From positions 1 through 64,000 of the forward strand of contig JAAERN010000100.1 in NCBI GenBank assembly GCA_024230295.1: a stretch of 64,000 nt of DNA, read 5' to 3'. Below are positions 10,330 through 23,139 of this stretch, piece after piece; position 1 is the first letter of the stretch; each line of letters starts with the position of its first letter. The stretch comes from Planctomycetota bacterium. GTDB taxonomy: Bacteria > Planctomycetota > Phycisphaerae > Phycisphaerales > SM1A02. The translations under genes and the position numbers were made by a program. Under the pieces are notes generated by a model. It made no database searches, was not told the origin of the DNA, and worked only from the letters and a program-made list of their open reading frames with translations.

Positions 10330-11532
10330 ATGGATTCCGATGCTGCAACTCGCCCGCCCCACATCGAACGACCGCACCTGAGGCGGGTACTCCCCCGCCC
10401 AGTTTCAGATGGCTCCAACCAAGGAATGGCCCTTCAGGATCCATTCATGCTGATGCCCCAGACGATGGTGGTGCCCACGGCCTTTGGCCCAGCCCTCCAG
10501 CATCTCAATGGCGAATGGACGATCGAGGAACTCGCAACCAACCTCAAGGCCCCTCCAGAGGCGTTAGAGAGTTTGGTGGCCAAACTGGATGAACTCGGTT
10601 TGCTTTGGGGCCCCACAGCCGAAGATCTGGAACAGGCCCGCCGTGAGGAAATCCAGAGCGACGGATGCCTACCGATGCGTCAAAGCGGCATGCTCGGAGA
10701 GAGCGAGGACGAGTGCCGCGCCACGCTTGATACATGGATGAAGGAAGCCGAGGACCCTGAAGTCGAGTTTGAAGTCCGCGGACTGTTCTCGCCTCGATTC
10801 GACTTTCCTGCTGCGGCGAACGTCTATGCGGGCACGTATCACGCCATCGCAGGCGGAGAATTCGACCGCGTACTGGTATTGGGAAATAACCAACTCGGCT
10901 TCGGGGACGGTGTCGTCGGAACCCGCTGGGGATTCCAAAGTCCTTTGGGACGGCTCTTGCCTGACACAGCGTTCATCGATGCGATGGAGTCGCGACTGGG
11001 CGACGCACTGTTCAACGACCAACTCGATCACATTGCCAGCCACGGCATCGAAATGCAGGTGCCATGGCTCCAGTTTTGCCTCGGCGAACCAAAGATCTTT
11101 GGATGCCTCATGCCGGACCCGCTCGACACTCCGATCGATGAGAGCAACATGGTCACGGCAACCGACTTCATAGATGCCGCCCAAAGCGTCATCAAAGATC
11201 TTCCAGGCCGCACGCTCGTCGTCGCTACAGGTGATCTCAGCCAAATCGGCCCTCAATTTGGCGAACCGCGGCCAATCGACGAGCAGCGGAGATTCGAAGC
11301 CGAGCGCGCCGATCGCGAACTGCTCTCCAAGTTCACGGGTGGTGACGCGGATGCGTTTGTCGCTGCGGTCAAATGGAACGCCAATGCAAATCGATGGAGC
11401 GGCGTCGGTGCCATGTCAGGCCTACTCGGTGTCCTGCAACCGTCTCATGTGGAACTGATCGACTACTGCCAGCATCCGCTGGACGAGGAGGGCACCGCCA
11501 TGATTGCATCCGCGGGGCTCGTCGTGGGCTGA
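10330..11532 (+). CDS. Memo-like (AmmeMemoRadiSam B) protein lacking the metal-site residues
   Basis: 400-residue protein with an N-terminal ~105-residue winged-helix-like segment (NGEWTIEELATNLKAPPEAL) and a C-terminal Memo/class III dioxygenase-like fold (~150-400). The fold is recognised from ANVYAGTYHAI, ASHGIEMQVPWLQF (compare HSIEMHLPY in human MEMO1), VVATGDLSQIGPQFG and the closing GVGAMSGLLG. The MEMO1 metal or active-site residues His49, His81 and Cys244 correspond to Arg156 (SPRFDF instead of SPHAGY), Asn/Gln at 186-188 (GNNQLG instead of GPSHHV) and Ser304. Enzymatic function is therefore doubtful and a binding role is more likely. An AAGGAG about 10 nt before the ATG supports this start. 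Its TGA shares one base with the dtd ATG. No AMMECR1 or radical-SAM partner is visible. Confidence 0.75.
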   Translation: MDSDAATRPPHIERPHLRRVLPRPVSDGSNQGMALQDPFMLMPQTMVVPTAFGPALQHLNGEWTIEELATNLKAPPEALESLVAKLDELGLLWGPTAEDLEQARREEIQSDGCLPMRQSGMLGESEDECRATLDTWMKEAEDPEVEFEVRGLFSPRFDFPAAANVYAGTYHAIAGGEFDRVLVLGNNQLGFGDGVVGTRWGFQSPLGRLLPDTAFIDAMESRLGDALFNDQLDHIASHGIEMQVPWLQFCLGEPKIFGCLMPDPLDTPIDESNMVTATDFIDAAQSVIKDLPGRTLVVATGDLSQIGPQFGEPRPIDEQRRFEAERADRELLSKFTGGDADAFVAAVKWNANANRWSGVGAMSGLLGVLQPSHVELIDYCQHPLDEEGTAMIASAGLVVG

Positions 11533-11984
11533 TGATCTGCGTTGTGCAGCGAGTGTCGTCGGCTTCTGTTGAAGTCGAATCGCCCCAACACAAGTCATCG
11601 ATTAAAAGCGGGTTACTCGTTCTTGCAGCAGCCGAGCCGTCGGATGATGACGCGGTGATTACGTGGACAGTGAATAAACTCGTCAACCTACGGATCTTCG
11701 CCGACGACTCCGGACGCATGAATCGGTCGGTGCAGGATATCGAAGGTGAGGTCCTGCTCATCAGCCAATTCACCCTCGCAGGAAACTGCAACAAGGGGCA
11801 TCGACCGAGTTTCATCGGTGCAGCACCACCAGAGCAGGCCGCACCCATGATCGAGCAACTGGGACGGGGGATTCGGTCGACCGGGGTGCCGGTCCAGACA
11901 GGTGTTTTCGGAGCCACCATGCGAGTGACCTCGGTCAACGAAGGCCCTGTCACGATTATCGTGCAGCGGACCGATGATCGCTGA
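11532..11984 (+). CDS. dtd: D-aminoacyl-tRNA deacylase
   Basis: Hydrolyses D-amino acids and glycine mischarged on tRNA, a proofreading step. At 150 residues it has normal length. Family signatures are the start MICVVQRVSSASV, the SQFTLAGNCNKGHRPSF block containing the catalytic-site loop, and the C-terminal TGVFGATMRV followed by NEGPVTI, the Gly-cisPro motif. The frame is open upstream to 11373, but the ATG at 11532 overlaps the stop codon of the Memo-like gene (TGATG), indicating translational coupling. A strong terminator follows. Confidence 0.95.
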   Translation: MICVVQRVSSASVEVESPQHKSSIKSGLLVLAAAEPSDDDAVITWTVNKLVNLRIFADDSGRMNRSVQDIEGEVLLISQFTLAGNCNKGHRPSFIGAAPPEQAAPMIEQLGRGIRSTGVPVQTGVFGATMRVTSVNEGPVTIIVQRTDDR

Positions 11985-12117: not shown

Positions 12118-12156
12118 GAGCCTGTACGTTGGCGGTCAACGGCGGGCTCTTTTTTT
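12118..12156 (+). terminator. Rho-independent terminator of the memo-dtd operon
   Basis: A two-part stem (outer GAGCC/GGCTC, inner CGTTG/CAACG) is followed directly by seven T residues on the plus strand. It lies about 135 nt after dtd and just before the convergent UDG gene. Confidence 0.75.
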
Positions 12157-12163
12157 GCCTTGG

Positions 12164-12814
12164 TCAATGTGCGAGCAGTGCCATCACGGCCTGCATGTCC
12201 TGCCACATCTGGCCCCGCACCTCTGCCGTGTAGTTCCTGAGCAGGAACGCGGGATGGAAGGTCGGCATCACCGGGATTTCCAGATCCCCCTCCGGATCCT
12301 GCCACACCCCCATGTGGCCTCTGAGGCGGGTAATCCCGTCGTGCGTCTGAAGGAGCAACTTCGAAGCCGGCCCACCGAGGGCGACGATGACCGATGGTCG
12401 AATTCGCCGCAACTGCTCATACAGCCAGGGCGTCGCCTGAGCGACTTCATCAGGGAGTGGATTGCGGTTGCCCGGGGGCCGAGCCTTGAGAACATTGCAG
12501 ATATAGACCTCTTCCCGCTCCAAGCCCATGGCCTTGATGATCTCGTCGAGTTTCCGCCCTGCGGGACCGACAAATGGTCTTCCCTGTCGGTCCTCATCGG
12601 CCCCCGGCGCTTCGCCGACAAAGACAAGGCTTGAATTTGGATCTCCCTCTCCGAATACACACGCTGTCGCTGCGGAAAGACTCTCACTGAATGGGAATGC
12701 GGCCTCGACCTCTCGCTGCAAGTCGTCCAACGAATCGCCCAGAACGGTCGATGAAATAGTCTCCACAGGCGCAGCACACTCGCTTGGCAATGGCATGCAC
12801 GACACACCGAGCAT
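12164..12814 (-). CDS. Family-4-type uracil-DNA glycosylase without the Fe-S cluster cysteines
   Basis: Removes uracil (from cytosine deamination) from DNA. From the ATG at 12814 the protein is 216 residues. Motif 1 GEAPGADEDRQGRPFVG (67-83) and the C-terminal motif FHPAFLLRN (186-194) are intact and typical of family 4 (UDGa). In that family four cysteines hold a [4Fe-4S] cluster: a CxxC near the N-terminus, one in VVKCRPP, and one ~15 residues later. Here the equivalents read EAAFPF, VLKARPP (Ala111) and QATPW (about Ala127), so all four are gone. Cys52 and Cys107 do not align with ligands. The frame continues upstream to a TTG at 12988 that adds no family match. Catalytic residues look intact, so activity is plausible. 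Confidence 0.85.
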   Translation of the reverse strand: MLGVSCMPLPSECAAPVETISSTVLGDSLDDLQREVEAAFPFSESLSAATACVFGEGDPNSSLVFVGEAPGADEDRQGRPFVGPAGRKLDEIIKAMGLEREEVYICNVLKARPPGNRNPLPDEVAQATPWLYEQLRRIRPSVIVALGGPASKLLLQTHDGITRLRGHMGVWQDPEGDLEIPVMPTFHPAFLLRNYTAEVRGQMWQDMQAVMALLAH

Positions 12815-13071
12815 GGCGTCAGACCGCGCGAGAAGGCGGTGCCGCGGGGATGCCTCTAAAGCAGCTTTTTTTTGAGTTCGCAAACAGTGTCTCCGCGACA
12901 AGTTCCGCCAGATAGAAGCACCGGCAATTACATGATATTGCCTCAGTTTCAAGATCAGGGGTTGCCAAATGATCGACTTCGGCAACAATGCACACTAGAT
13001 CTCAAAGATGCTGCCATGGACGGGTTCAGGGGCTTTGTGGGCCCCTCAGCGTCGGCGAATGAAGGTGTGGA

Positions 13072-20998: not shown

Positions 20999-21958
20999 TC
21001 AGTCCTGACCCGGGCCGCGGCTGCCCTCCCCGCGGCCGCCGGACGAACCGGTAAACCGTCCATCACCCTGACGAGCATTCCGCCCTCTCTTGGGCCGACG
21101 CAACTCAGCGATTGCGGCCTGGTCTCCCAGAATGGCTCGCATCTCTTCCTGCTGCTCGGCCGTCAGGGCATCCCACAACTTCTCCTGCGCTTCGGCAAAC
21201 TTCTGCCGCAACTCCTTCACTTTGGCTCGCTTCATTTGGCGGGCCGCTTCCTGCTCACGCGAGTTGAGATTTGCCTGATCGCGATCGCGGCCGTCAGTGT
21301 CGCCGTCTCCACCCTGCCGACGATCTCGTCTTGGCCGCTGGCGGCGAAGGGACTCGACCGCGCGTTCGGCTTCGTCTCGCTGCGCATCGGTGAGATCAAG
21401 CGACAGATAGATGAGGCCCCACATCCTCATATCCACATCACCGCCGCCCTGCATTGCTGAGGCAACGAGTTGTTCCTTCGTTGTTCCTCCGGCGATCCAG
21501 TCACGAACACGTTCGATTTCCATCTTGCTCAGCGGCTCACCCTTGGAAGGCATGATGTCCTCATGTCCCTTGGGAAGCATGATCCGCTCAAGCAGAATGC
21601 TTTCATCGGGCTTGCCTGGAATAACAACCCAGTCCTGCGAATCACCCATAAAGAGAGCGTCAATGGGAAAAAGTCGAACGCCGCCTTTCTGCTTCTCTGG
21701 GCCGTGGCACGAGCCACAACGCTGCTGCAACATGCTCTGCAATCCCGAATTGCCCCGCGGACCTGAAAGACCACCGCCCATTATCCGGCCACCCGATGGC
21801 GCCTCCTCACTGTCAACATCCGGTCCACTGAGCGGTGCAGTTTCCGATGCCTCTCCCCCGGACTGCCGAGCTACGTCCTCTGGATTGGTCGGATCCCACG
21901 GCGGGGCTGTAACAAGAGCCAGAATGGAGAGAACCACTGGTGTAAGCATCAGTGTCAT
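20999..21958 (-). CDS. Planctomycete-type cytochrome c-domain protein, exported
   Basis: 319 residues with a short signal peptide (MTLMLTPVVLSILALVTA). A PSC_Cyt1-type domain (~70-160) contains the heme-binding RCGSCHGPEKQKGGVRL (CxxCH) and a distal methionine in HEDIMPSKGEPLS. The C-terminal third is a highly charged Arg/Asp/Gln-rich helical region (ESLRRQRPRRDRRQGG; a predicted coiled coil at ~235-290), then a Gly/Arg tail. In planctomycetes these domains usually precede DUF1553/DUF1549 proteins; none is present here. GGGAG 8 nt before the ATG. 125 nt upstream of sat. Confidence 0.85.
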   Translation of the reverse strand: MTLMLTPVVLSILALVTAPPWDPTNPEDVARQSGGEASETAPLSGPDVDSEEAPSGGRIMGGGLSGPRGNSGLQSMLQQRCGSCHGPEKQKGGVRLFPIDALFMGDSQDWVVIPGKPDESILLERIMLPKGHEDIMPSKGEPLSKMEIERVRDWIAGGTTKEQLVASAMQGGGDVDMRMWGLIYLSLDLTDAQRDEAERAVESLRRQRPRRDRRQGGDGDTDGRDRDQANLNSREQEAARQMKRAKVKELRQKFAEAQEKLWDALTAEQQEEMRAILGDQAAIAELRRPKRGRNARQGDGRFTGSSGGRGEGSRGPGQD

Positions 21959-22080
21959 GTGACGTGCTCCCTGAGAGTGAGTTTCGACTTTCGCCAGATC
22001 TTTCTTGCGTGCTCGATACCATCTTACGACTCGGCCCCCCTTTCCATCCCCAGACCTCGACCGGAGCCCCCATTGTGCCT

Positions 22081-23139
22081 ATGACAGAAGCAACGGTTTT
22101 GGATGCACTCTCTCAAGTCATCGACCCCGATCTGAAGCGGGATCTCGTCACACTCGGAATGATTCGCTCGGCCAAGGTTGAGGGCGAAACCGTTCGAGTT
22201 GTCATCGAGTTGACCACTCCAACCTACCCCATGAAAGATCAGATCTTGGCCGATTCAGTTGCCGCCATTGAGGCAGCTGGCGCGAAAGCCGGATGCGTCC
22301 ATATCGAGTTCAGCACCTCTTCGGCCGCCACCGACCGCCCTGTGCTGCCAGGCGTGAAACATGTCATCGCCGTAGGCGCAGGCAAGGGCGGTGTTGGCAA
22401 GTCGACGATCGCGACCCTCTTGACACTCGGGCTCTCACGTGCCGGAGCACGCTGCGGACTCCTCGACGGTGACATCTACGGACCCTCGCTCGGCACCATG
22501 CTCGGGCTTGATGATCTGGAAGTGATGGCAAAGGGAGAGATGCTGATCCCCTTTGATGTGCACGGCATCAAAGCCATGACGATCGGCAAACTGGTCGATC
22601 CAGAGAAGCCCATGATCTGGCGCGGTCCAATGGCTCACAAGGCGTTTTCGCAGTTGCTGCTCCAGACTGAGTGGGGCGAACTCGATTACCTGATCGTGGA
22701 CCTTCCACCGGGAACCGGAGACGTGCCACTGTCTCTTTCTCAGGCCCTGCCTCTCTCTGGCGCCGTCATAGTCTGCACTCCACAACGTGTCGCTCAAGAC
22801 GATGCGCGACGCGCGGTACGAATGTTTGGCGAACTCGGTGTACCAGCTGTTGGACTCGTCGAGAACATGAGTTGGTTCGTCACGGATGACGGCGTTGAGT
22901 ATGACCTCTTCGGACGTGGCGGAGCCGAGCAGATGGCATCGGAGATGGAACTTCCATTTCTCGGACCGCTACCCCTGCACGTGAGCATGCGTAAGAACGC
23001 CGACGCCGGCACACCGCTTGGCAACTTCGAGATTAGCGACGATATCACCGCCGCAATCGATCATCTTGCTAGCGAACTAGCCCGACGCGTTTCGATTCAG
23101 GAAGCAAGCGCAGTGGCGCCATCTATCAGCGTCAGCTGA
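22081..23139 (+). CDS. Mrp/NBP35-family Fe-S cluster carrier ATPase
   Basis: P-loop ATPase that carries and delivers Fe-S clusters. 352 residues. An N-terminal MIP18/DUF59-like domain (~1-85) includes VIDPDLKRDLVTLGMI. The deviant Walker A GKGGVGKST follows at ~105, then LLDGDIYGPSLGTMLG and LIVDLPPGTGD. The usual cluster-binding CxxC after ENMS is absent: the text reads ENMSWFVTDDGVEYDLFG. Some Mrp proteins naturally lack CxxC, so function may persist in altered form. The frame is open upstream to 21952; ATG 22081 fits the family start but has no clear ribosome site. Confidence 0.88.
   Translation: MTEATVLDALSQVIDPDLKRDLVTLGMIRSAKVEGETVRVVIELTTPTYPMKDQILADSVAAIEAAGAKAGCVHIEFSTSSAATDRPVLPGVKHVIAVGAGKGGVGKSTIATLLTLGLSRAGARCGLLDGDIYGPSLGTMLGLDDLEVMAKGEMLIPFDVHGIKAMTIGKLVDPEKPMIWRGPMAHKAFSQLLLQTEWGELDYLIVDLPPGTGDVPLSLSQALPLSGAVIVCTPQRVAQDDARRAVRMFGELGVPAVGLVENMSWFVTDDGVEYDLFGRGGAEQMASEMELPFLGPLPLHVSMRKNADAGTPLGNFEISDDITAAIDHLASELARRVSIQEASAVAPSISVS

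Follow-up and report, generated by a model that had tools for sequence, protein, structure and literature searches.

A family-4-type uracil-DNA glycosylase lacking its iron–sulfur cysteines, and repeated ligand loss among its relatives in the Phycisphaerales

Family-4 uracil-DNA glycosylases (UDGs) are described as [4Fe-4S] enzymes in PMC5295032. The role of the [4Fe-4S] clusters of glycosylases is still debated, the two views being a structural clamp and a redox-active damage-finding device. One locus of a planctomycete from the order Phycisphaerales raises the question of whether an enzyme of this kind can do without its cluster in nature. The window analysed here (64,000 nucleotides; contig JAAERN010000100.1 of assembly GCA_024230295.1, positions 1 to 64,000) encodes a UDG for which the original prediction, made from the letters alone, held that the catalytic blocks are intact and every cluster-binding cysteine is replaced. 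In what follows, the order refers to the Phycisphaerales; families within it are coded f1–f6, genomes carry G-numbers and loci carry L-numbers.

The UDG gene occupies positions 12164–12883 of the minus strand and probably starts with a TTG at 12883, giving a protein of 239 amino acids. The coordinates first proposed, 12164–12814, run from an internal ATG at 12814, and the residue numbers used here are counted from that methionine. We took the TTG as the start because a TTG stands at the corresponding codon in all but one of the nine genus members, as the first residue of an LRTQKK-like stretch back to which the frame is common to the genus, and because GGAG, a possible ribosome-binding site, lies 7 bases before it (12891–12894, minus strand). 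A CxxC restored from an upstream start can be ruled out: the 23 residues added by the TTG at 12883 contain no cysteine, and the longest open reading frame with a start codon (TTG at 12988) gains only one. Between the UDG gene and a convergent D-Tyr-tRNA deacylase gene (about 11532–11984, plus strand) lies a terminator-like inverted repeat (12127–12144) with a T-run after it; by chance alone, the region should contain roughly one site of this kind.

The protein scored 176.4 bits against TIGR00758 (cut-off 125.3), 128.6 bits against PF03167 and 123.6 bits against TIGR03914, the last below its cut-off of 189.95. Motif A, defined for family 4 as GE(A/G)PG in PMC10359453, reads GEAPG (residues 67–71, including Glu68; 12602–12616, minus strand), and motif B, given there as HPAAVL, reads HPAFLLR around the HPAxxL core (His187–Arg193; 12236–12256, minus strand). 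Phe81 of the PFVG block (12572–12574, minus strand) and Asn107 of the YICN block (12494–12496, minus strand) are likewise kept, so that all five active-site residues (Glu68, Phe81, Asn107, His187 and Arg193) are present and the catalytic blocks are indeed intact. An AlphaFold model of the protein had a mean pLDDT of 93.6 and a pTM of 0.86, with the blocks around loop 111–127 at 97. The model aligned with Thermotoga TM0511 (1vk2) at Z 30.1 and an rmsd of 1.6 Å over 189 residues, and with the Thermus enzyme (1ui0/1ui1) at Z 29.4–29.5; across both enzymes, identity was 39–44% over 182–189 residues. The predicted fold thus matches family 4; most rows of the alignment behind the model keep the cysteines, so the model speaks for compatibility with the fold and not for stability. 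In its TIGR00758 score, both motifs and its predicted fold the protein goes with family-4 UdgA, and the loop between the third and fourth ligand positions has the same length in both. UdgA, however, has four cysteines binding a [4Fe-4S] cluster and the window UDG has none; because this part of the family definition fails, we class the protein not as a standard member but as a variant that arose from family 4 and is free of the cluster.

Two related families share the superfamily fold and were rejected as identities. The family-5 enzyme UDGb (2d3y) aligned with the model at Z 21.2, but its motif A is GLAPA according to PMC10359453, not GEAPG; four family-5-like genes of the order also keep four cysteines, unlike the window UDG. 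UdgX of Mycobacterium smegmatis (6ail and others) aligned at Z of about 25 and has GEQPG and a KRRIH R-loop, in place of which the window UDG has GEAPG, KARPPGNRNP and no cluster cysteines.

The ligand columns of the window UDG were read from an alignment with 195 relatives. In the place of the four cysteines stand Phe40 (12695–12697), Ser43 (12686–12688), Ala111 (12482–12484) and Ala127 (12434–12436, all on the minus strand), which confirms that all four have been lost. The third ligand, changed from VVKCRPP to VLKARPP, is Ala111 as described, with alanine in 9/9 genus members, and the fourth is the alanine expected near residue 127. For the CxxC, the loss of the pair stood, but the proposed replacement by A/F did not. 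This A/F reading came out of two smaller alignments without genus mates, in which the pair slid by one residue; the pair is placed at F40/S43 because the second cysteine is still present in the eight other genus members, four of which read FPFC, two FPGC, one FPWC and one VANC. The loop 111–127 (12434–12484, minus strand), at whose ends the cluster would anchor, retains its length and its RPPxNRxP motif and was modelled with a pLDDT of about 97. In each of the nine genus orthologues three or more of the ligand cysteines are missing, and 26 of 152 rows from the order have lost every one, so that chance or an assembly error is a very unlikely source of the loss.

The survey of Phycisphaerae orthologues that had been suggested as a check was run and revealed repeated cysteine loss. 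TIGR00758 gave a match over its cut-off in 138 of 141 genomes, and a scan with the window protein found L032 (JASMKH010000010.1, Phycisphaerales bacterium) as a relative. The tally for the order comprises 152 rows; G296, a UdgX-type protein with a GEQPG motif, was left out of tallies and tree, and further above-cut-off matches in G025, G030 and G346 were not counted. Of these rows, 36 carry all four ligand cysteines and 50 carry three; 2 have two, 38 have a single one and the remaining 26 have none. Elsewhere in the same class, represented by 7 of 9 listed genomes, six rows had four ligands and one had three. In the same phylum outside the class all four were found in 36/36 rows, a biased sample made up of the 28 top-scoring and 8 chosen ones. 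A second set of 29, meant to offset this bias and consisting of 28 genomes selected because they scored low against TIGR00758, with G081 added as a control, contained 27 with all four; the remaining 2 are truncated by the end of their contig and have a cysteine at every ligand position that can be read. In 14 of these 29 the motif A, counted by eye, is other than GE(A/G)PG. Outside the class, then, the cysteines persist longer than the active site; inside the order the reverse is seen.

We regard it as highly probable, from alignment, conservation and predicted fold together, that the window gene encodes an active monofunctional UDG that descends from cluster-bearing family-4 enzymes and no longer binds a [4Fe-4S] cluster. 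Within this reading, the absence of the cluster is very likely and catalytic activity is likely. Uracil would be flipped out and its glycosidic bond hydrolysed by Glu68, Asn107 and His187, which by homology we take to be the usual family-4 catalytic residues, and the N-terminal helix and the loop, once clamped together by the cluster, would now be held by ordinary side-chain packing of Phe40, Ala111 and Ala127. Four other explanations bear on the cause of the loss, the state of the gene, its metal content or its role.

The first, which enlarges on the oxygen- or iron-sparing form of the original prediction, is that the UDG cysteines were lost because the whole genome saves iron or avoids clusters sensitive to oxygen. 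Two other proteins of these genomes do show changes. From a set of 41 genomes, the analysis covered Nth in 39 and MutY in 32. The cluster motif of Nth is altered in 32/32 examined members of f1–f4: 21 read C-x6-C-x5-C-x3-C in place of the usual C-x6-C-x2-C-x5-C, and the other 11 (eight of the window's genus, G012, G013 and G015) have different changed forms. The Nth of the window's own genome (L264; G000:C130:18427-19002) reads CKARNCTCGEHSVC in the cluster region, and that of G012 has just three cysteines at the motif. The Pfam model for the Fe–S region of endonuclease III matched a canonical Nth example weakly (18.3 bits; cut-off 20.5) and gave no match to two remodelled ones. In f5 and f6, the motif is canonical in 7/7 genomes (six exact, G029 one residue longer). 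The second changed protein is a Mrp/ApbC-type ATPase encoded in the window (21952–23139, plus strand), which reads ENMSWFVTDDG where proteins of this type usually have a CxxC. A complete CxxC was likewise absent from the Mrp of 30/30 relatives (30 of the 41 genomes); in G005, a search of the whole genome gave no full Mrp match, the best hit having an E-value of 8.2e-4.

Other Fe–S proteins point the other way. MutY has its four cluster cysteines in 31/32 genomes, 30 with canonical spacing and G033 with two extra residues; in the thirty-second, G039, the frame that was found does not contain the motif. The family-5-like UDG with a GLAP(A/G) motif keeps four in 4/4 cases, judged by eye, and G012 combines such an enzyme with a family-4 UDG that has one. 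A MiaB-type radical-SAM enzyme with CNKFCTYC is encoded in the window itself. Since MutY, the family-5-like UDG and the MiaB-type enzyme keep their cluster cysteines, genome-wide iron or oxygen sparing is disfavoured. Moreover, the f5 members G028, G032 and G036 combine a canonical Nth with a cysteine-depleted UDG, and a Mrp without CxxC also occurs where the UDG has all four cysteines (G033 and G037); as the 30/30 Mrp proteins lack the CxxC whatever the state of the UDG, a link between the two losses was not seen. We therefore consider a genome-wide cause improbable, and as such a cause the sparing idea of the original prediction did not find support. Selection acting more narrowly, on certain clusters of DNA-repair enzymes, is conceivable, given that Nth is remodelled in many of these genomes.

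It is quite improbable that the gene is decaying, with a cluster-less protein that is unstable or inactive and selection relaxed. Decay does occur in the genus, because G005 (L041) has lost motif A (GGVPSQEDE) along with other conserved positions; within the order, motif A is also altered in G024 (L040), G330 (L173), G361 (L167), G372 (L187) and G346 (L172). Such proteins, some of them with four cysteines, may have lost or changed uracil excision. The window gene, by contrast, is under purifying selection. Among 11 pairs formed with the window protein, dN/dS was 0.066 against the nearest relative and 0.09–0.20 against seven others, and in three it could not be computed as dS was saturated; since dS is near saturation, the values are rough. 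Nor is loss of the cluster as part of catalytic decay the pattern of the order, where the five active-site residues are kept in 26/26 cysteine-free, 37/38 one-cysteine, 2/2 two-cysteine, 46/50 three-cysteine and 33/36 four-cysteine rows. The window UDG is also the sole match to PF03167, the UDG-superfamily model, in its genome, which is rated 97.6% complete. Across this genome and 40 relatives, 19 have a UDG with at most two cluster cysteines, and 9 of the 19, the window's own included, contain no other PF03167 match, four of these nine being just 83–87% complete. The conservation of the cluster-free UDG implies a working enzyme.

Another explanation, which we hold to be very improbable, is that the protein still binds a metal or cluster through ligands that are displaced or of mixed kind, such as Cys52 and Cys106 along with other side chains. 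The window protein has four other cysteines, C6, C13, C52 and C106, found in 5/9, 1/9, 9/9 and 8/9 genus members, respectively; just two of them, C52 and C106, are well conserved in the genus, so a four-ligand set cannot be assembled from them. Cys52 (12659–12661, minus strand) is not a family-4 ligand position and recurs in 1/47 other f1 rows. Its conservation and that of Cys106, together with a second ligand cysteine kept by 8/9 of the genus, is what could speak for a mixed site. The window UDG, however, lacks this second ligand cysteine, and Cys106 is not a substitute ligand because it is found alongside the ligand cysteines in 6/7 same-class rows outside the order. Across the order, a cysteine-free row has a mean of 0.81 further cysteines in its core, and in 11 of the 26 there is none, so that displaced ligands are disfavoured for these UDGs in general as well as for the window protein. 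Equally improbable is a changed role, towards another lesion or as a covalent UdgX-like DNA binder: the loop, which PMC10359453 presents as the likely evolutionary source of the UdgX R-loop, could become free once the cluster clamp is lost, but the window UDG has neither the GEQPG motif nor the KRRIH R-loop, and its genome contains no other PF03167 match.

Accepting an active, cluster-free UDG as the preferred reading, we turn to how often and in which order the ligands were lost across the order. A quick tree was built from 171 core sequences with the ligand columns removed, without G296 and without 24 of the 36 same-phylum rows; several of its branches are weak, and one same-phylum row fell among those of f5 and f6. 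On this tree, the state changed between three or more ligand cysteines and fewer at least 11 times, in families f1, f2, f5 and f6. With the root placed at G156, 12 separate clades in these families consist of low-cysteine members throughout, a count that depends on this rooting; the figure of 11 changes is independent of it. Even without a gene tree, four losses remain as a minimum, because f1, f2, f5 and f6 each also contain members with three or four ligand cysteines, provided that inheritance was vertical and no ligand was regained.

The intermediate states suggest an order of events. In the three-cysteine rows it is without exception (50/50) the third cysteine, that of KCRPP, which is missing, replaced by Ser in 37, Ala in 8 and Thr in 5, and this suggests that the third cysteine goes first. 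Four-cysteine rows nevertheless nest inside clades otherwise devoid of it (G024, G342 and G361 in f1, G329 in f2), so that the third cysteine must either have disappeared more than once or have come back; its position changed at least 9 times on the tree. With these nested rows as evidence against it, a stepwise loss, in which the third cysteine gave way to Ser, Ala or Thr before the others followed, is what the patterns probably reflect. The lineages probably also ended with different sets of replacements. Among rows with at most two cysteines, f1 has Phe at position 1 in 13/16 and Ala at position 3 in 14/16, and f2 has Ala at position 1 in 30/37 and Thr or Val at position 3 in 34/37. The corresponding rows of f5 have Leu, Ile or Val at position 1 in 5/6 and Trp at position 4 in 2/6, and those of f6 have Tyr or Phe at position 3 in 7/7. 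We infer from these family-specific residues that the empty cluster site was repacked separately.

A broader picture can be drawn tentatively, and we hold it as possible but doubtful: in the Phycisphaerales, the cluster of a main UDG would have been dismantled repeatedly, by way of a long-lived three-cysteine stage, ending in several independently repacked cluster-free enzymes. At the three-cysteine stage, with Ser, Ala or Thr in the third position, the protein may carry a serine-ligated or a three-iron cluster. If the picture holds, then together with the change of Nth in f1–f4 it would mean that this lineage runs base excision repair with two Fe–S glycosylases altered or cluster-less, and would amount to an experiment of nature on whether the search for damage requires DNA-bound clusters. 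The orthologues with four, three, one or no ligands and the same active-site residues also form a natural panel on which the role of the cluster can be tested without artificial mutants, and in some genomes a member of the panel is the only UDG found.

Cluster loss in a glycosylase would have a precedent in MutY, for which Trasvina-Arenas et al. (2016) reportedly described cluster-free homologues and, going by the title, a natural dispensability of the [4Fe-4S] cluster. In those homologues it would be MutY that is without the cluster; in the present genomes the motif of MutY is retained and that of the UDG disappears. The two proteins have unrelated folds, MutY being of the HhH type. For UDGs themselves, PMC5295032 reports partly active cysteine mutants of families 4 and 5 and, in the Pyrococcus and Archaeoglobus enzymes, Cys-to-Ser changes that cost only about 40% of activity. 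Because of this small cost, the cluster was already thought to be stabilising rather than catalytic, and its partial dispensability in vitro is not new. What is new here is the natural, repeated loss of the ligands of a family-4 UDG, as read from the alignments; the titles and abstracts of open-licence PMC articles, a partial cover of the literature, yielded no description of a natural family-4 UDG without a cluster.

Ligand loss is not confined to the Phycisphaerales, because it is also present in genes on IMG/VR contigs. Among the best 80 of 435 family-4-like genes there, which were not de-duplicated, 63 have four ligands and 5 have three (four CCHC and one DCCC), while in the other 12 at most two are left. 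Eight of these 12 have no ligand cysteine at all (L375, L378, L380, L382, L384, L341, L348 and L383). The opposite combination was seen at L412–L415 and other low-scoring planctomycete loci outside the class, where motifs A and B are altered and the four cluster cysteines are kept; these proteins are possibly cluster-bearing without glycosylase activity.
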